64,000 nucleotides of DNA, taken from the NCBI RefSeq assembly GCF_000590885.1, contig NZ_JFHN01000075.1:186001-250000 (forward strand). Reading direction: 5' to 3'. Source of the DNA: Erwinia mallotivora. GTDB taxonomy: Bacteria; Pseudomonadota; Gammaproteobacteria; Enterobacterales; Enterobacteriaceae. Both the position numbers and the translations under genes were made by a program. This document shows positions 22,374 through 54,119 of this stretch, in pieces. The stretch's first letter is position 1; the number at the start of each line of letters is the position of its first letter. The notes below the pieces were generated by a model. It was not told the DNA's origin and did not search any database. It saw only the letters and a list, made by a program, of their open reading frames with translations.

Positions 22374-23880
22374 CGTGCCGATCACTCTGCGGCTGACGCT
22401 GTTTTTTTCCGTGGCGATGGCGCTGGTGCTGTACAGCGTTTCCGGTCTGCTTTACCACACAATGCGCAGTCAGCTTGGGCAGAAAGATGAAAACGAACTG
22501 CGCAGTACACTGCGTTTTCAGCAGGAAATCGCCACCACCATTAGTGAGCGTCAGGGTCCGCAGGAGCAGTGGCAAAAGGAACTGTTTGAATTTATTGTGC
22601 AGCAGGAACGGCTGTCGCTGCGGATCATCAGCCCGGATGGCCGGGTCTGGTCGCAGTCTAAAAATATGCTTGTGCCGCAGCAGGACTTCCCACCACCCAC
22701 CACGGATTTTCGCTATGACACCTGGCGCTATCATCAGGGTGAAGTCCATGAAAAATATCTGATTACCTCCACCAATTTTATTCTGAAAAACCATCAGCCC
22801 TGGCTGGTGCAGGCCGCGCTGAACGTCTCACGCAATAATGCCATTATTGAAAATTACTGGGCGCAGATGCAGCTCGCCGCCGCGCTGGCAATTGCCTGTT
22901 TTGCCGCGCTGGGCTACTGGCTGGCTCGCCGGGGCCTTTCACCGCTGCGGACCATCAGCCGTGAAATGGAAAACATCCACGCGGACGATCTGCACACCCG
23001 GCTGGCCACACAGCGCTGGCCTTCTGAACTGAGTGCCCTCTCCGCCTCTTTTGACGGCATGATGACCCGACTGGAAGCGTCGTTTACGCAGTTGAACCGC
23101 TTTTCATCTGATATCGCCCATGAATTACGTGGGCCAATCAACAATCTGATCTCCGCAGCCAGCGTGACGCAGAGTAAGGATCGCAGCATCAGGGAGTATC
23201 GCGACACCCTGGCAGCCATCGTGGAGGAAGGTGAACGGCTGTCACGGATGATCTCTTCGATGCTGTTTCTGGCGAGGGCCGATAACAGTAGTGAACCGCT
23301 CAGCCCTGAGCGGCTTAACAGTGCGGACGAATTTGCGCGGCTGATCGGTTATTACGAGATCCTGGCCGAAGATAAGCAGATCACCCTGCGCTGCGAAGGT
23401 GAGGTGATCTTTCACGCCGACCCGCTCCATCTGCAACGCGCGCTGGCTAACCTGCTGTCAAATGCTATCCGACACACTCCGCCCGGCGGCCATATTATGC
23501 TCAGTGCGCGACGTGAAGCAGACACCACCTGTCTGAGCGTAACGGATGATGGTGAAGGGATGGCAGCAGAGCATCTGCCGCACATTCTGGACCGTTTTTA
23601 CCGGGTTGATGCCGCCAGAAGCAATGCCGAAAACACCGGGCTGGGACTGGCTATCGTTAAAACCATTGCCGAGCTGCATGGCGGCAAAGTGGTGGTCAGC
23701 AGCCAGCCGGGCCGGGGTAGCCAGTTCACGCTACGACTGCCGAACCTGCCCCCCACCCTCCCGACAGCCCCGCTGAAGCCGGTTCGGGCGGGCGCTACCT
23801 GTCAGAATTGTCATGCAGATGACCCGGCCGGGTCACTGCCCGTGCGGGATAATCATCAGGTCAAAACAACACACACATGA
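22357..23880 (+). CDS. CusS-like heavy-metal sensor histidine kinase with C-terminal CxxCH tail
   Basis: A 507-residue membrane kinase: first helix at about residues 8-30, a periplasmic domain of roughly 130 residues, second helix near 168-190, HAMP, H-box with the phosphorylated His in [10 protein letters not shown] (near 254), and N, G1, F and G2 boxes ([34 protein letters not shown]). It overlaps the regulator gene by 17 bases. After the catalytic domain it continues for about 45 residues that family members lack, with a CQNCH motif near residue 482. Whether this tail binds metal or is an accidental extension is unknown. Its partner regulator has lost the phosphorylation site. Confidence 0.88.
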
Positions 23881-23890
23881 AAAGGTGACC

Positions 23891-24163
23891 ATGATGAAAC
23901 GTACACTCCTCTCGATTCTGTTCGGCGCTTGTTCTCTGTTTGCTTTAAGCCAGGGAGTCGCCGTGGCTGGCGTGGAAAAAAACGCCAGCGTCTGGCTGCT
24001 GACGCCCGCCAGCTGGCATCCGAATCCCAATAAACTGCACGAGAATTATCCGTGGGACCTGGGAGAAGGGGCACAAAATGAACTGCATCAGCAGCCGCAC
24101 GACAAGGTCAGTAAAGACGGTGACGCCAACAGTCAGGCTAAAGCAGAGTACCATCAATCCTGA
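23891..24163 (+). CDS. Small secreted protein of the RND operon, unknown
   Basis: A 90-residue protein with a clear signal peptide (MKRTLLSILFGACSLFALSQ, predicted cleavage near AVAG at residues 25-28). The mature part is short, polar, rich in His, Asn and Lys, and has no recognised domain. The first of two ATGs follows AAAGGTGACC; it starts 10 bases after the kinase stop, so it is probably the last gene of the efflux operon. A periplasmic His-rich peptide after a metal-type sensor could buffer metal, but that is speculation. Confidence 0.7.
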   Translation: MMKRTLLSILFGACSLFALSQGVAVAGVEKNASVWLLTPASWHPNPNKLHENYPWDLGEGAQNELHQQPHDKVSKDGDANSQAKAEYHQS

Positions 24164-24176
24164 CGTCGCCTGCTGA

Positions 24177-24213
24177 CCGACACCGCCGCTGAACCCACGG
24201 CAGGCGGTGTCGG
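24177..24213. terminator. Perfect 11-bp inverted repeat between convergent operons
   Basis: CCGACACCGCC (24177-24187) and GGCGGTGTCGG (24203-24213) flank a 15-base loop between the RND operon (+) and fetB (-). The stem is strong but has no T-run on either side. Confidence 0.6.
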
Positions 24214-24218
24214 CCTGC

Positions 24219-24986
24219 TTAACGCTGCTGTTTCAGCTGCGCCCGCGCGGTAAAGAAACGCCGCGAGGCCAGATAACCGGCAATAATGGTCGAGAAACTG
24301 GCGGTGCCGAGCAGCATAAAGGTGACCATGATCTGATATTTAATCGCCTTCACCGGATCGATTCCGGCAAAAATCAACCCGGACATCATTCCCGGCAGAC
24401 TGACCAGTCCGACTGTTTTAGCGGCATCCACGGTTGGGATCATCGCCGCACGAATGCTGTCACGCACCAGGGTGCCGGATGCCACCCTCACCGACGCCCC
24501 CAGACTGAGCATTTCCATAATTTTCTGCCGGTTATCAGCAAAGCGCTGATTCAGATTGCTGTAACAGAGCCCCACCGCCACCATCGCATTTCCGGCTATC
24601 ATGCCGGAGACAGGGATCACCTGCATTGGCACAAATTCAATCGCGCCGCTGACCAACAGAATGGTCAGCGTCAGCGTGGTACTGAGGGTGACAGCGACAA
24701 AGGACAGAATAAAAGCATGGTCAATATTACGGCTGCGCTTACGGGCATTAATGGCCGCGTTAACACAGATAAACAGCACCATCAGCACCGTCAGTAACGC
24801 ATTGTTCAAATCAAAAATGGTTTTCAGCACATAGCCAACCACCACCAGCTGGACCACGGCCCGCGCTACGCTCCAGACGATGTCTTTTTCCAGCCCCAGT
24901 TTTTCTTTACCGCTGACCAGCAGTGCCACCACCACCAGCAGCAGCGACAGCAGCAATGAGCTGTCAGTAATATTATGCTGATTCAT
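24219..24986 (-). CDS. fetB: Iron-export ABC transporter permease FetB
   Basis: A 255-residue UPF0014-family permease with about seven membrane segments, close to E. coli FetB (259 residues; shared VPMQVIPVSGMIAGNAMVAVGLCYSNL and KTVGLVSLPGMMSGLIFAGIDPVKAIKYQIMVTF). With FetA it lowers cytoplasmic iron and protects against peroxide stress. The ATG at 24986 overlaps the fetA stop by 14 bases, so the pair is translationally coupled. The longer frame (to 25055) lacks homology upstream. Confidence 0.93.
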   Translation of the reverse strand: MNQHNITDSSLLLSLLLVVVALLVSGKEKLGLEKDIVWSVARAVVQLVVVGYVLKTIFDLNNALLTVLMVLFICVNAAINARKRSRNIDHAFILSFVAVTLSTTLTLTILLVSGAIEFVPMQVIPVSGMIAGNAMVAVGLCYSNLNQRFADNRQKIMEMLSLGASVRVASGTLVRDSIRAAMIPTVDAAKTVGLVSLPGMMSGLIFAGIDPVKAIKYQIMVTFMLLGTASFSTIIAGYLASRRFFTARAQLKQQR

Positions 24987-25641
24987 CAATGTGACTCCCG
25001 CCGGGCTGAGGTAAGGTGAGCAAACGTTTTGCCTGGCGGATTTCCGCCACATCATGACTGATACTGACCGTCGCCACGCCCTGCTCCGCCGCCAGGCTGG
25101 CGATCAGTTGATTAATTCGTTGCCGGTTCTCTTCATCCAGCGCGCTGGTGATTTCATCCAGCAGCAGCACATCAGGTAAAAATTGCAGATTGCGTAATAA
25201 TCCCACCCGCTGTTTTTCGCCGCCGGAAAGCTGCTCTGGTTTTTTTGCCAGAATGGTTTCCGGCAGGTCCATCTGCCGCAGGCCATAGCGAATTCTGGCG
25301 CTGTCCACCGTTTTCTTGCGGATTTGCCACGGCAACGCCAGATTGTCATATACCGTGTCACCAAACAGCACCGGCGTCTGAAAACAGTAAGAAACCCGCT
25401 GACGATAATGCTCCGGCCTGATACTGCCGGACGGCTGGCCTTTAAACAGGATCTGGCCGCCTGAGGGTTCAAGCAGCGAGGCGAGGATTTTCAGCAACGT
25501 GCTTTTTCCACTGCCTGACGGACCGGTCACCAGCAGAGATTCACCGGCATTCAGGGTCAGTGAAACCGGCTGCAACAAGGTTGTACCGTCCTGCATAAAA
25601 TAAATATCCTGCACGTCGAGCAGGGGCGAAACAGGCGACAT
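24973..25641 (-). CDS. fetA: Iron-export ABC transporter ATPase FetA
   Basis: A 222-residue ABC ATPase with Walker A (GPSGSGKST, near residue 40), Q-loop, LSGGEKQR signature and Walker B (VLLLDEIT). It precedes and overlaps fetB, as in E. coli. The complex exports iron and works in peroxide resistance. The pair lies between the RND operon and an iron-type binding protein, a loose metal-handling neighbourhood. No Fur box was recognised upstream. Confidence 0.93.
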   Translation of the reverse strand: MSPVSPLLDVQDIYFMQDGTTLLQPVSLTLNAGESLLVTGPSGSGKSTLLKILASLLEPSGGQILFKGQPSGSIRPEHYRQRVSYCFQTPVLFGDTVYDNLALPWQIRKKTVDSARIRYGLRQMDLPETILAKKPEQLSGGEKQRVGLLRNLQFLPDVLLLDEITSALDEENRQRINQLIASLAAEQGVATVSISHDVAEIRQAKRLLTLPQPGGSHIDESA

Positions 25642-25689
25642 GATTTATCCAGCCAGAAGGAAATATTATTCAGTGGATAATAACGCAAT

Positions 25690-25712
25690 AAGGCGACAAA
25701 CCGTCGCCTTTT
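25690..25712 (-). terminator. Terminator after the binding-protein gene
   Basis: AAGGCGAC (25690-25697) and GTCGCCTT (25703-25710) form an 8-bp stem with a 5-base loop between the binding-protein gene and fetA. A short A/T-rich flank exists on both sides. Confidence 0.65.
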
Positions 25713-25733
25713 AAACAGGAAAATCACTGCCCG

Positions 25734-26846
25734 TTATTTCTGCTGTGCAGAATAACTCAGTATGACCTTATCGTCGGGCAGATGAGTAAATCTGGAAATA
25801 ATCTGGTGAAAATCTGCGGTGGAATTAAGATGGCTGAACTGTGCCGGATAAAGATCCTTCGCCAGAATTTCCATACCAATAATATTATAAGGGTGGTTGT
25901 AAAAATGGTGGTAAACGCCATATACCCTGCCCTCTTTTACCGGCGTAATTTGTTGCAGACCATTACGGGCAACTAGTTTATTAAAGGTCACCGCCACGGC
26001 GTCAGGCGAAGTATTATAACCAAACGGCAGCACGTTTTTATTCGGACGCGCCGAGCCGGACATAATATAAACATCCGGCTTCATGGCGATAATTTTTTCC
26101 AGCGCCACAAAACCTGATGCGCCAGGCAACAGGCTGGAGCCAATGTTTTTACCGCCAACCGCTTCAACCAGCCCACCCCAGCCGTTATGTCCGTGCGTAA
26201 AGCAGCAGTTATCACTGTTGCCCGCAATCGGCTCAATAAATACCGTGGGCTTCTGCTTAACCTGGGCTATCTGTTGTTGCAGCGCATCCCAGTGCTGATG
26301 ATAGAAATCCGTATAGGCTTTAGCCCGTGCCTGCTGATTCAGGATCTCGCCCAGTAAGGTGATGCTGTTGGCGGTGTTTTGCGCCGGGTGCAGTTCATAG
26401 TCAATAAAAACTACCGGAATATTAAGCTTTTGCAGGGTGGTCAGCACGCCGGTTTGTTGCAACGCGGGCTTCGCGCGCAGCTGGGCAATCATCAAATCCG
26501 GCTTTTCGGCAATCACGCTTTCCAGGTTAACCTGCCCCTGGTCATTAAAGCCCATATCGATAATTTTACCGGCGGCGGGCCAGGTTTTCTTTAATACTTC
26601 CCAGGTCTGAGGGTCCTGTTTTTTGGGCAGGTTATTCCATGCCACCAGCCGTTTAAATGGATTTTCCCGATCGAGCAGCGCCAGAGCGAGAATATCCCGC
26701 CCGTCCTGCAGGATAATATGCTGAGGCTCGTGGCTGAGGGTAATCTTCTGATTATCCATATCGGTAATTTCGAGGGGCCAGGTGGTTGCGGCGCAGCTCG
26801 TCGAAACGGCAAGCAGCGCTGACAACAGCCAGTAACGAAGGGTCAT
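25734..26846 (-). CDS. Periplasmic siderophore/iron-type ABC substrate-binding protein (orphan)
   Basis: A 370-residue class III periplasmic binding protein (FecB/FhuD/BtuF type). The signal peptide covers about residues 1-20. Both lobes are recognisable, including the VNLESVIAEKPDLMIAQ stretch typical of lobe 1 and LEKIIAMKPDVYIMSG of lobe 2. A CCFTHGH segment near residue 215 is unusual. A GGAGAAAT site precedes the ATG. No cognate permease or ATPase is adjacent (fetAB is an exporter of a different family), so it must share a transporter encoded elsewhere. Ligand unknown; iron complex is the family expectation. Confidence 0.82.
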   Translation of the reverse strand: MTLRYWLLSALLAVSTSCAATTWPLEITDMDNQKITLSHEPQHIILQDGRDILALALLDRENPFKRLVAWNNLPKKQDPQTWEVLKKTWPAAGKIIDMGFNDQGQVNLESVIAEKPDLMIAQLRAKPALQQTGVLTTLQKLNIPVVFIDYELHPAQNTANSITLLGEILNQQARAKAYTDFYHQHWDALQQQIAQVKQKPTVFIEPIAGNSDNCCFTHGHNGWGGLVEAVGGKNIGSSLLPGASGFVALEKIIAMKPDVYIMSGSARPNKNVLPFGYNTSPDAVAVTFNKLVARNGLQQITPVKEGRVYGVYHHFYNHPYNIIGMEILAKDLYPAQFSHLNSTADFHQIISRFTHLPDDKVILSYSAQQK

Positions 26847-27004
26847 GTTATTTCTCCATAAAAACGAACGCAGGAATCGCGGGCAAATATACCGACAACA
26901 CCAGGCTATTTCATCTTTTTTAGCCGGAGGAGAGTAACATCACCCTGTTGAATAAATTCAACCGGGCCAGACTGAATTAAATGGTAACAAAATGAATTTA
27001 ATGG

Positions 27005-27613
27005 TTACCTGAATATGCCTTTTTTAATCGCCGGTAAAAACAGCCACTGATAAATCGTCATCAGGCAAAGATAAACCCTGTCGGTCAGGCGGGTATTTCG
27101 TCGACAGAGATAAACCGCCATCAGGGCCACCACCGCTGAACCCAGAATATCGAGCGGGAAATGCACCCCCAGATAAATTCGAGCCCAGGCAATTCCCAGG
27201 CTTAAAACCAGTGCTGTGCCGCCCTGTAGCCAGCGGCTGGTTGCCAGCAGGCTGAAGCTGACGGCAAAAGCCACCGACAGATGGTCGCTGGGAAAGGAAG
27301 GATCCGCACTGTGAGCCAGAAAATGGTGTCCGACAGGGACCATAAAAGGCCGTGGATGTTGCCACAGCAGGCCGATTGCCAGATTGAACAGCAGCGCTAT
27401 CGCCACGCTGACTGAGGCATTCAACGCCAGGCGTTTACCCTGCTCAGCGCCAAAAAACCACTGCGCCAGCAGCAGCAGAGGAAAGAGAAAAATCACCCAA
27501 TTGGCAAAGAGATTACCCAGTGCCAGCATGGTCATTCCGGGACTGGCCGGGGCATTAATCAGCGAGAAAAGCAGCAGGTTGGCCTTTTCCCAGGCCGCTT
27601 GTGGTAACAGCAT
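27005..27613 (-). CDS. PAP2-family lipid phosphatase (undecaprenyl-diphosphatase type)
   Basis: A 202-residue inner-membrane phosphatase resembling YbjG/LpxT-type enzymes, which dephosphorylate undecaprenyl diphosphate or move its phosphate to lipid A. The three PAP2 motifs are visible: the RP of LLWQHPRPF, PSDH, and RIYLGVHFPLDI with its catalytic His. Six helices are likely. The ATG at 27613 has AAGGAG 7 bases upstream; a GTG two codons earlier overlaps that site. It starts 10 bases after the kinase gene, so it belongs to the same operon as the two-component system, suggesting co-regulated envelope lipid modification. Confidence 0.87.
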   Translation of the reverse strand: MLLPQAAWEKANLLLFSLINAPASPGMTMLALGNLFANWVIFLFPLLLLAQWFFGAEQGKRLALNASVSVAIALLFNLAIGLLWQHPRPFMVPVGHHFLAHSADPSFPSDHLSVAFAVSFSLLATSRWLQGGTALVLSLGIAWARIYLGVHFPLDILGSAVVALMAVYLCRRNTRLTDRVYLCLMTIYQWLFLPAIKKGIFR

Positions 27614-50668: not shown

Positions 50669-51007
50669 TTAATTCATCGTTTTGCAATCGTAGTCGCCAG
50701 AAATACGAACTGGTTGGCTGGGTGTCGGCACCACTTCAACATGCAGCGTAGCGACACCCTGCTGATAACGGTTCTCCATCGCCAGCTTGCCTGGTGCCCG
50801 GGTATTTTTAACAATCCAGTGATATCTGACATTGTCAGTGTCACCCGGTTTGCCGCTCCAGGTTGTTTTCACCCTGGTGGCTTTTGCATGATTAACCAGA
50901 AATACGCCAGGCTGCGGCGTATCAATGGCAAAAGGTCCACACTCTACGATGGCTGTGGCATAAGAGGTAAAAGAGAGCAGACAGCAGGCTACTGCAAATC
51001 GAAACAT
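50669..51007 (-). CDS. Small secreted protein, unknown
   Basis: A 112-residue protein with a signal peptide (about 1-18, cleavage near ATA) and a mature domain of probable beta structure. Two cysteines, at about 23 and 108, could form a disulfide linking the ends. No family recognised. It starts about 150 bases from the plus-strand yoaJ-like ORF. Confidence 0.65.
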   Translation of the reverse strand: MFRFAVACCLLSFTSYATAIVECGPFAIDTPQPGVFLVNHAKATRVKTTWSGKPGDTDNVRYHWIVKNTRAPGKLAMENRYQQGVATLHVEVVPTPSQPVRISGDYDCKTMN

Positions 51008-51494: not shown

Positions 51495-51860
51495 TCACGA
51501 ACTGAAGTACTGCTGACAACGATTCATCATTGCTGATAAGGCCGCCTGAGACGGCTGGTCGTTCTTACCAAAGTAATAAGTGACGCTGGTTTGATCGCCA
51601 GACGCGATCATATCTATCCATGCCACCACCGTTGACTGTTGATTATAAAGATTAAAGCGTCTGATACCGCCAGGCAGAGGATCATCCTCTCTCAGCATTA
51701 ATTGATGTTGAAAGGCCGAGACGCTCAGGCAGTCAGAAACCCGTAACAGACTGGCTGAGAAATCGACTTCTTTCATCCCTGGATTACTGCCAACCTTGCC
51801 GAGATCAACACAGCCTGTCAGCACCAGTAACGTAGTAATTAAGAACACCTTTCTGAACAT
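51495..51860 (-). CDS. Small lipoprotein, unknown
   Basis: A 121-residue lipoprotein: lipobox LTGC with Cys near residue 17, Val-Asp following. Asp at +3 rather than +2 leaves sorting unclear. Two further Cys residues (near 44 and 115) could pair. The mature sequence has no domain I recognise. It is flanked by an AT-rich gap. Confidence 0.7.
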   Translation of the reverse strand: MFRKVFLITTLLVLTGCVDLGKVGSNPGMKEVDFSASLLRVSDCLSVSAFQHQLMLREDDPLPGGIRRFNLYNQQSTVVAWIDMIASGDQTSVTYYFGKNDQPSQAALSAMMNRCQQYFSS

Positions 51861-52334
51861 TATTTTCTCCTTAAGGCACTATTTTTTCTTACCGCCGATA
51901 AAATAAAAATGGACCATTTTGTGTTTCAGATGAGGATTAAATCACCTCGCTCAACAGGATGATGTTTGGCATACCCTTTAATTTTATTCAGAAAATCCGC
52001 AGGCGTGAGCAACACATCAATATGTAAATATTATTCAACAAACGCTGTCAATTAAAGGTATTTAACATCAAATGATTTTATTTCAAAAATAATAAACCTG
52101 CCAACTCCACCCTCCGTAAGAAATAATTCCCAAACAACAAGATAGTTTAAATAAAGAAGAGCACCAGTTATTGCCAGTAATAAATAAAAACACCATGACT
52201 TATATCAACCAAAAGAATCATTATATAAAATTAACAATAATCTTATACAATCTTATCTGTTGAAACTCATTAACATCGATTAACATTGACCGCGCTGTAA
52301 TCAGGATATTTATCTACTTTTAAGGAGAATTGTA
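51861..52334. other. AT-rich gap upstream of the microcin-like gene
   Basis: 474 bases, clearly richer in A/T than the surroundings, with no accepted gene and no immunity-type ORF on either strand. It carries the promoter of the microcin-like gene at its right end. Base composition suggests foreign DNA. Confidence 0.5.
52286..52316 (+). promoter_or_regulatory. Putative promoter of the microcin-like gene
   Basis: TTGACC (52286-52291) is a good -35. TTATCT (52310-52315, 18-base spacer) or the overlapping TATCTA are -10 candidates. An AAGGAG ribosome site follows at 52322-52327, 7 bases before the start codon. Confidence 0.45.
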
Positions 52335-52613
52335 ATGAGAGAATTAAATTGCACTGAAGTAAGTCTGGTTAGCGGTGCCGGAACCAGTGAGGTGGTCAGC
52401 AGTCTGAATACGGTTATGGAAACCATTTCAACGACTCTGGCAAGTACTGTTGAGTCTCTTACCAGCGCAACAGACAGCAGAGAAATTTCCGGACTGTTCC
52501 GCAAAGTCATGAGCCTGACAGGTTTGTATACCAAATTAACTTTTATTACTAATCTGTTATCCTCCACCATTACTGATTCAAGCTCTTCAGAAGAAACTGT
52601 TACTGAAGCATAA
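52335..52613 (+). CDS. Microcin-like peptide with double-glycine-type leader
   Basis: A 92-residue peptide. Its first 15 residues, MRELNCTEVSLVSGA, follow the class II microcin leader pattern (MRE-L/I-x4-E-V/L-x2-VSGA/G) seen in microcins V, L and E492, which are cut after GA/GG by a peptidase-containing ABC exporter. The predicted mature part of about 77 residues is Ser/Thr-rich, has no Cys, contains one moderately hydrophobic region (LTGLYTKLTFITNLL) and ends in a Ser/Glu-rich tail (SSSSEETVTEA). Strong AAGGAG site. No immunity gene or exporter is visible nearby, so toxicity is unproven; it might be a non-toxic relative using a distant exporter. Confidence 0.65.
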   Translation: MRELNCTEVSLVSGAGTSEVVSSLNTVMETISTTLASTVESLTSATDSREISGLFRKVMSLTGLYTKLTFITNLLSSTITDSSSSEETVTEA

Positions 52614-52660
52614 GATATTTTCTGAGCAGCAATAAGATATTATCTTATATTCTGTCACCT

Positions 52661-52696
52661 AATCCGGGTCAGATGGATTTTATTCTGACCCGGATT
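52661..52696 (+). terminator. Perfect 13-bp inverted repeat after the microcin-like gene
   Basis: AATCCGGGTCAGA (52661-52673) pairs fully with TCTGACCCGGATT (52684-52696) around a 10-base loop, starting 47 bases after the stop codon. There is no clean T-run, but the hairpin is strong enough to end or protect the transcript. Confidence 0.65.
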
Positions 52697-53032
52697 GACT
52701 CAGGTTATATCGTGCTGAGTTTATACGAACGATATTTTTTTCTTCCTGATTTATCACCTCTCCTTCCCACTGGCTCACAGCCATTCCCTTTTGCCCGTTG
52801 GTCAGAAAAGAGCCTTTTTTCCGGCAGCGTATAAGGAGCGAGCTCAGCTATCCGGGCCTGTGCGGTGTGGCGTTTCAACATCATTTATTCTTATTACTGA
52901 ATTCCTGCCTGCGGCTGTACTTGGTGCCGTTTTCAGGGTTTGTATTACCTGCCAGCCACACCAGGCTTTAACATCATCGCTCAATACTTTCAGGCGAGCT
53001 AATGACATCCGATTTTCAGCCCCACTCATTTT

Positions 53033-53252: not shown

Positions 53253-54119
53253 ATGAAATATAAAATTGTGATGGCTGGCGCACTGGCTGCGCTCTCTTAT
53301 AGTGCCTCTTCGCTTGCTGCAAGTGACAACGCTGAATACGTTTCTGACTGGTGGCATCAGAGCGCCAACGTGGTCGGAAGTTATCACACCCGTTTCGGGC
53401 CTCAGCTGAATAATGATGTTTATCTGGAATACGAAGCCTTTGCCAGAAAAGACTGGTTAGATTTTTATGGCTACGTGGATGTGCCTAAATTTTTCGGGGC
53501 AGGAAACGGTAATGACCGGGGAATATGGGATAAAGGCTCACCGCTGTTTATGGAAATTGAACCGCGTTTTTCCATCGACAAGCTGACTGATACCGACCTG
53601 AGTTTCGGTCCGTTTAAAGAGTGGTACTTTGCCAATAACTATATTTTTGATATGGGACGTAACAGTGCCAACCGCCAGAATACCTGGTATATGGGGCTGG
53701 GGACCGATATCGATACTCACTCTGACATTGGCCTGTCACTCAACGTTTATGCCAAATATCAGTGGGAAAATTACGGCGCGGCAAACGAAAACAGTTGGGA
53801 TGGTTACCGCTTCAAGGTGAAATATTTCGTCCCTCTGACCAGTTTGTGGGGCGGTAAACTCACCTACATAGGCTTTACCAACTTTGACTGGGGTTCGGAT
53901 TTACGTGATAAGTCTGATGCTTCCCGTACCAGCAATTCTGTGGCCTCCAGCCACATTCTGTCGCTGGGCTACGATCACTGGCATTACTCTTTTGTCGCAC
54001 GCTGGTTCCACAACGGCGGCCAGTGGGCGGATGGCCAGGAACTGAACTTTGGCAATGGTCCGTTTGAGGTGAAATCAACCGGCTGGGGTTACTACCTGGT
54101 GGTTGGCTACAATTTCTGA
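53253..54119 (+). CDS. tsx: Nucleoside-specific outer-membrane channel Tsx
   Basis: A 288-residue outer-membrane beta-barrel (E. coli 294) for nucleoside uptake; also a phage and colicin K receptor in E. coli. Signal peptide about 1-22 (cleavage near LAA). The conserved [19 protein letters not shown] start and terminal Phe strand (YYLVVGYNF) are typical. The start codon has no strong ribosome site. Control by CRP/CytR is suggested by the tandem sites upstream. Confidence 0.95.

Follow-up and report, generated by a model that had tools for sequence, protein, structure and literature searches.

Peptide gene and its expression signals

The window analyzed here is a stretch of 64,000 nucleotides of Erwinia mallotivora (genome G000; 4.64 Mb in 75 contigs), and the gene under study is encoded on contig C75 next to tsx (Table 1). 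The open reading frame specifies a product of 92 aa that starts with MRELNCTEVSLVSGAG and has SSSSEETVTEA at its C-terminal end. For comparison we used genome G024, taken as Erwinia psidii, in which the homologue (69% identity) also has tsx downstream (94% identity between the two Tsx proteins) and, as judged by eye, a counterpart of the window gene 50669-51007 upstream. For the lipoprotein-like ORF 51495-51860 of the window, no counterpart is listed at the E. psidii locus.

Table 1 Features of the peptide locus in the window.
Feature	Position	Strand	Basis
Precursor peptide gene, 92 codons and stop	52335-52613	+	ORF call; E. psidii homologue at the same place
Ribosome-binding site AAGGAG	52322-52327	+	Sequence; kept in E. 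psidii
Leader, 15 codons, predicted cut after GA (residue 15)	52335-52379	+	Invariant VSGAG; inferred cut
Mature part, 77 residues, two predicted helices and disordered Ser-rich tail	52380-52610	+	AlphaFold2
Hairpin behind the stop codon	52661-52696	+	Fold z-score -4.6; counterpart in E. psidii by eye
tsx, downstream neighbor; address marker, outside the system	53253-54119	+	NCBIfam NF011686; 270/288 residues as in E. psidii

Most of the expression signals in the original prediction of a microcin-like gene were found as described. Seven bases separate the ribosome-binding site from the ATG, and the site is also present in E. psidii. In the hairpin, 52661-52673 form 13 Watson-Crick pairs with 52684-52696, and there is one additional G-U pair. 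At the same place after the E. psidii stop codon, a hairpin with different letters can be seen by eye in the unfolded sequence. Because no T-run follows the hairpin of the window and the terminator scan does not list it, we regard it as a 3' hairpin and not as a textbook intrinsic terminator. The proposed -35 element (TTGACC at 52286) has to be dropped, since it is part of no promoter match in the scan and is not kept in E. psidii. The AT-rich pocket is real, with the 1-kb bin 52001-53000 having the lowest G+C of all 64 bins (0.390), and the region 52000-53000 gave no match in E. coli genomes. Compared with E. psidii, dN/dS was about 0.20 for the core (dN 0.20, dS 0.98) and about 0.46 for the C-terminal tail, and core values of 0.05-0.29 were obtained over 21 pairs among seven Pantoea-type homologues; these ratios indicate purifying selection on the gene. 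With a conserved ribosome-binding site, a hairpin in both species and such dN/dS values, the ORF is a real, selected, single-gene unit.

Leader and core

Like class II microcins, the peptide starts with a leader of the double-glycine type (GG or GA), about 15 residues long, whose MREL...VSGA/G pattern is kept far better than the core, as in other GG/GA leaders. Among 11 family members, 11 columns are invariant and 8 of them fall within the first 16 residues (M1, E3, E8, V12, S13, G14, A15 and G16), the V12-G16 block being identical in 11/11. Homologues conserved along the whole protein but lacking the leader had been named as evidence against the prediction; in those found, the GA leader is better conserved than the core. 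A strict leader motif, derived from the leaders themselves, had a single match in a six-frame search of the window and none in 40 block shuffles. Unrelated cores also share the leader, as the family profile gave leader-only matches elsewhere in the genome.

The mature part contains no Cys, and 32 of its 77 residues (42%) are Ser or Thr, as had been noted. AlphaFold2 predicts helices at residues 6-44 and 48-81 with a mean pLDDT of 68.4, residues 81-92 staying below 50, and in this model one continuous helix spans the leader and part of the core, at moderate confidence. Such a two-helix model would fit a membrane-active peptide and a self-assembling peptide equally well. Matches to solved structures were weak, chiefly coiled-coil and designed helical chains, and we attributed them to composition. 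No microcin family in Pfam or NCBIfam matched the window protein, and its Pfam matches to MRS2-like and Antigen_Bd37 were below the cut-offs of these families and were rejected.

The likeness to the Gly/Ser-rich tails of siderophore microcins is not supported, since Gly is absent from the tail TITDSSSSEETVTEA, which is rich in Ser, Thr and Glu. The HlyC family (PF02794), which we take to be linked to microcin modification, had no match in this genome and none in any control genome either. Siderophore modification of the peptide found no support in this HlyC search. A plasmid origin was rejected, as the window peptide and a Pantoea homologue were without a match in 72,556 plasmid records; the leader peptide of a fimbrial locus described below matched two Klebsiella records in its first 36 residues only.

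A set of leader peptides at fixed chromosomal addresses

Beyond a single microcin-like gene, the window peptide is one of a set. A leader profile of 16 columns, built from 34 leaders of which some came from the genomes searched, gave 8 matches in the E. mallotivora genome at E <= 1e-3. With E <= 0.05 as the limit it gave 103 matches, spread over 27 of the 37 genomes available for the genus, and chance alone would account for about 2 of these. Leader lists obtained with regular expressions also include false matches, and these were left uncounted. Seven of the eight E. mallotivora genes stand singly at dispersed intergenic addresses, and the remaining one lies on contig C10 beside fimbrial genes. 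Numbered from the window peptide, the addresses are (1) beside tsx, (2) between a DoxX gene and a glutathione-transferase gene, (3) between tsaD and plsY, (4) between cpdB and fklB, (5) between an amino-acid permease gene and ampE, (6) between a DUF1456 gene and an EamA gene, and (7) beside ispH.

The same seven addresses are occupied in E. psidii, with the DoxX address recognized from that side alone and a gap of 900 bases at ispH. Between the two species the seven peptides share 38-70% identity (69, 70, 64, 38, 62, 61 and 44), and the proteins flanking them 79-94%, except for one short match of 58%. Outside E. mallotivora, we inspected 28 of 80 orphan matches (24 + four), with the flanks named by eye. 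Together with E. mallotivora, these placed a leader peptide between tsaD and plsY in 6 genomes, between cpdB and fklB in 6, and at the DoxX address in 5, two of which were recognized on the DoxX side only. The core at one address can be wholly different, as in genome G018 at tsaD-plsY. In the four Pantoea-type loci displayed (L016, L017, L020 and L021), uspA and rsmJ flank the family gene, the gene names being tested in L017.

The window core is the odd one among the E. mallotivora address peptides, with 42% Ser/Thr and no GxxxG motif against 2-4 such motifs in each of the other six. When the co-cargo peptides were compared with microcin families, 3/6 matched Pfam MccV at 17.0-23.8 bits (cut-off 27) and 2/6 matched NCBIfam E492 at 13.2 and 15.1 bits (cut-off 50), all of them below the cut-offs. 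Two further arrangements were observed: Pantoea sp. GD03673 (L022 6001-9710) has three family copies in a row, two with an identical protein, and the G022 peptide at the ampE address (L208, contig C53) differs from the other address peptides read, its core ending in a long serine run and then a tail with Cys.

Exporters encoded elsewhere in the genome

No exporter lies near the peptide, and the suggestion that one would be encoded elsewhere is supported. The genome has three C39 proteins (contigs C11, C19 and C34), two of which (C11 and C19) are C39-peptidase ABC exporters with HlyD partners. The C11 locus (L008 1-5454) looks like a conventional microcin-type locus: besides an ABC protein of 712 aa and HlyD, it has a hydrophobic ORF of 65 aa and a GG-leader peptide that extends past the end of the contig. 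The C19 locus encodes a TolC-like outer-membrane efflux protein (460 aa), HlyD (419 aa) and an ABC protein (716 aa) with the catalytic triad Cys26, His99 and Asp115, each residue being shifted by 6 relative to the CvaB triad as quoted in the available text of PMC9746304. A C39 ABC exporter, an HlyD-type adaptor and a TolC-type channel, as required for class II microcins, are thus all present in the genome. The clustering with exporter genes that is usual, if not universal, for class II microcins is absent, with exporters on C11 and C19 and the peptide on C75. As a separate observation, the 382-aa C39 membrane protein of C34 (L003 / L010, ~23650-27021) adjoins, by eye, acyl-carrier-like and PLP-decarboxylase-like proteins and apparently belongs to another biosynthetic cluster; similar genes lie beside an exporter in L031.

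An exporter tree was built from 57 exporters, with nine ORFs dropped by a length and motif filter, including the clade-B-like exporters of G007 and G013, which were restored by identity for the counts. The C19 exporter falls in a fully supported clade of 20 members (clade A). All 20 clade-A loci have a TolC-like gene, and a fimbrial usher gene was found in the stretch read at 11 of them and at none of another 8; in L121, an usher is present and was assigned to the adjoining clade-B locus. A leader peptide of the window type lies directly behind the exporter at 4/20 loci. Contig C10 carries genes for a fimbrial subunit, chaperone and usher, the leader peptide, a response regulator and a kinase, and because the end of C19 (L009) and the start of C10 (L156) share the same insertion-sequence genes, we infer that the two contigs adjoin. 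The clade-A exporter is probably linked to fimbriae.

Several other features were seen around these loci. Near the exporter and fimbrial genes, the insertion-sequence genes apparently split a regulator gene between C19 and C10. Next to three clade-A exporters, the leader peptide is accompanied by another short one of leader type whose C-terminal stretch is hydrophobic (L114 10700-10963, L131 10868-11113 and L133 5652-5903), possibly as a two-peptide system. The frames of the C39 exporters in L125 (G030) and L143 (G035) are split in two, which reflects decayed genes or sequencing errors, and G030 has no orphan leader match.

Exporters and orphan leaders occur together

The absence of peptidase-containing exporters from genomes with the gene would have counted against the original prediction, and we found a C39 exporter of ABC size in 5/5 family-bearing genomes among the 37 of the genus, one of the five (G022) having a leader-only match. 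Among the Pantoea genomes tried, a C39 match was found in 5/6; the draft genome of P. conspicua gave none, yet it carries the gene. Leader matches were then counted as orphans if every C39 exporter was more than 8 kb away or on a different contig. Using this definition, at least two orphan matches were found in 15 of the 20 genus members that encode an intact exporter of clade A or B and in 0 of the 17 that do not (Fisher 3e-6), where the two clades were picked after the genus data were seen and E. mallotivora enters with 8 orphans, one being the C10 peptide. The comparison at E <= 1e-3 gave 12/20 vs 0/17. When any C39 ABC protein was taken as the predictor, the counts were 15/31 vs 0/6 (p 0.06), and clade-C exporters showed no significant association with orphan leaders in the genus (p 0.11). 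When the two traits were simulated as independent on a thrS tree, the observed association was reached in 0/2000 runs in each of three set-ups. An independent-pairs test was not significant, with five pairs being too few to reach significance; for at least two orphans, 2-3 of the 5 pairs agree and none opposes, and for at least one orphan there is one opposing pair in some pairings. Besides P. conspicua, the exceptions are G028, with one leader match and no C39 protein; G008, with a family member and a sole exporter that is divergent and has its own GG peptide; and G025, with a clade-B exporter only.

A test outside the genus was fixed beforehand on 392 genomes of the taxonomic family, five of which are labelled as the same genus. 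At E <= 1e-3, at least two leader matches were found in 13/17 clade-A genomes vs 30/370 others (Fisher 1e-10). This is not a clean hold-out, since 15 genomes of the draw gave leaders to the profile, and the counts without these contributors were 7/11 vs 22/361 (2e-6). When matches near an exporter were dropped, at least 10/17 clade-A genomes of the full set still qualified (5e-7). Fewer than two leader matches were found in 4/17 clade-A genomes, and the 30/370 other genomes with leaders may be explained by the scoring of clade A alone in this test.

Immunity gene search

We compared ORFs of at least 30 aa between E. mallotivora and E. psidii at all seven addresses. At none of the seven was a separate conserved ORF of this size found beside the peptide, and the conserved matches consisted of the peptide itself, overlapping frames, the genes on either side together with frames shadowing them, and a short segment ahead of tsx. 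Immunity genes shorter than 30 aa or distant from the peptide are still compatible with this result.

Discussion

The original view of the gene as microcin-like can be kept in part. The leader and an exporter elsewhere in the genome agree with it, and the lack of an adjacent exporter, of a conserved adjacent ORF and of a microcin family match does not, so that identity as a class II microcin is not established from these sequence features. As the best explanation, we propose that the gene is a single cistron encoding the precursor of a peptide that is secreted. A transporter of the C39-peptidase ABC type, with its gene elsewhere in the genome, would recognize the MREL...VSGA leader, cut it after GA and export the helical core of 77 residues, and this transporter would most likely be the clade-A one on C19 with its HlyD adaptor and TolC-like channel. 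The gene would be one of the eight leader genes of the genome that together form the cargo of the C39 exporters, and outside the cell its product may belong to a mixture of peptides acting against competitors, which fimbriate cells would release or display while growing on surfaces. We give this explanation as a whole a probability of about 0.4. Its parts differ in strength: secretion of the peptide through some C39 exporter is highly probable, passage through the clade-A exporter is likely to a lesser degree, and antagonism, if the peptide is secreted, is an even bet.

Antagonism toward competitors is a guess. The cores diverge more than their neighbors and differ between species at one address, and because of this diversification and turnover we lean slightly toward it. 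On the other side, dN/dS is low and not raised, and the seven addresses have no conserved separate ORF, unlike bacteriocins with a neighboring immunity gene. A surface or biofilm role is nearly as likely, given the lack of immunity genes, the signs of purifying selection and the connection with fimbriae. In that case the same exporter would secrete a peptide without toxicity, helical or self-assembling, that works with fimbriae as a component of the matrix or surface, which as a complete explanation we hold possible but somewhat doubtful. The usher genes at 11 of the 20 clade-A loci and the two-helix model with a free tail agree with it, as does the precedent of Synechococcus, where EbfG1-4 and the C39 transporter PteB enable biofilm formation according to the available part of PMC4997328. 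The wide differences between cores of different species, even at one address, and the 8 clade-A loci without an usher in the stretch read argue against it.

If the peptide were instead an ordinary class II microcin exported by the conventional-looking C11 exporter, its immunity gene would have to be very small or elsewhere. The leader is of the same type, the C11 exporter adjoins a GG-leader peptide and a 65-aa hydrophobic ORF, and unlinked microcins are reported in Serratia marcescens SM39 (PMC13101503, as far as its text was available). However, no conserved adjacent immunity ORF of at least 30 aa was found, clade-C exporters lack a significant orphan-leader association, and E. psidii has the same seven addresses with no clade-C exporter found there, which makes this reading unlikely. 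Slightly less credit still is due to an unexported intracellular helical protein with a leader-like N-terminus: the model does join leader and core in one helix, but the leader is kept over the core, is common to unrelated cores and is coupled to exporters. A signaling role is the least plausible: the product would be a leader-bearing pheromone, with a sensor of the kind represented by the response regulator and kinase at the fimbrial locus. A response regulator and a hybrid kinase do lie beside the C10 fimbrial genes and beside the E. psidii exporter; against this stand the core length of 77 residues, the variety of cores within a genome and the absence of a matching receptor next to each gene.

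In-trans export of an anti-competitor peptide stays our preferred reading, and a broader generalization in the other direction is only a tentative one. Plant-associated enterobacteria might possess a dispersed secretion regulon, in which one C39 exporter, often in a fimbrial locus, serves many unlinked leader peptides with fast-turnover cores at fixed addresses; these would need no immunity genes and would be surface-layer or biofilm effectors deployed with fimbriae rather than bacteriocins. If the proposal of scattered, immunity-free cargo is true, a single exporter deletion would test the whole peptide set at once, and the result would tell whether the enterobacterial double-glycine pathway serves surface life as well as warfare. 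It also bears on genome mining. Class II microcin candidates have been published for Erwinia and Pantoea, with hits in 40.0% of the Erwiniaceae species sampled in one study (PMC9746304) and 159 candidates after filtering over three genera, 23 of them tested, in another (PMC13174018). In the text of these papers available to us, both screens filter or choose candidates by exporter or immunity genes. If the cargo is scattered and immunity-free, such screens count its peptides as isolated microcins or rank them low, and peptides of the present set may stand in the supplementary lists of the two papers. Among titles and abstract openings in the part of the open-access literature that our search terms covered, we found no description of a fimbria-linked C39 exporter with unlinked, immunity-free cargo.

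Compared with known systems, the gene combines familiar elements in a different arrangement. Class II microcins and the Erwiniaceae candidates, as described in the available parts of PMC9746304 and PMC13174018, likewise have a short precursor with a GA/GG leader and a C39 ABC exporter with HlyD in the genome, whereas the window gene is solo at a fixed intergenic address, far from the exporter and without an adjacent immunity ORF, and its core is Ser/Thr-rich, Cys-free and without a microcin family match. The multi-microcin genomes of Serratia marcescens also carry several class II microcins each, some of which are encoded at separate locations; in the accessible text of PMC13101503, however, the authors treat microcins as encoded adjacent to an immunity gene, and no fimbrial exporter or fixed addresses were seen. 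CdzC and CdzD of Caulobacter (PMC5380434, from the portion available) are small peptides exported by a C39-type system and resemble the co-cargo cores of E. mallotivora in having GxxxG motifs. The window core lacks this motif, and the Cdz cluster has a dedicated immunity protein, CdzI, making it a precedent for surface-bound killing with an immunity gene. EbfG1-4 of Synechococcus elongatus are also small proteins with GG or GA leaders that are exported by a C39 transporter, PteB, and for them a biofilm role was shown; by the available account (PMC4997328), they differ in being cotranscribed instead of scattered and in belonging to a cyanobacterium.
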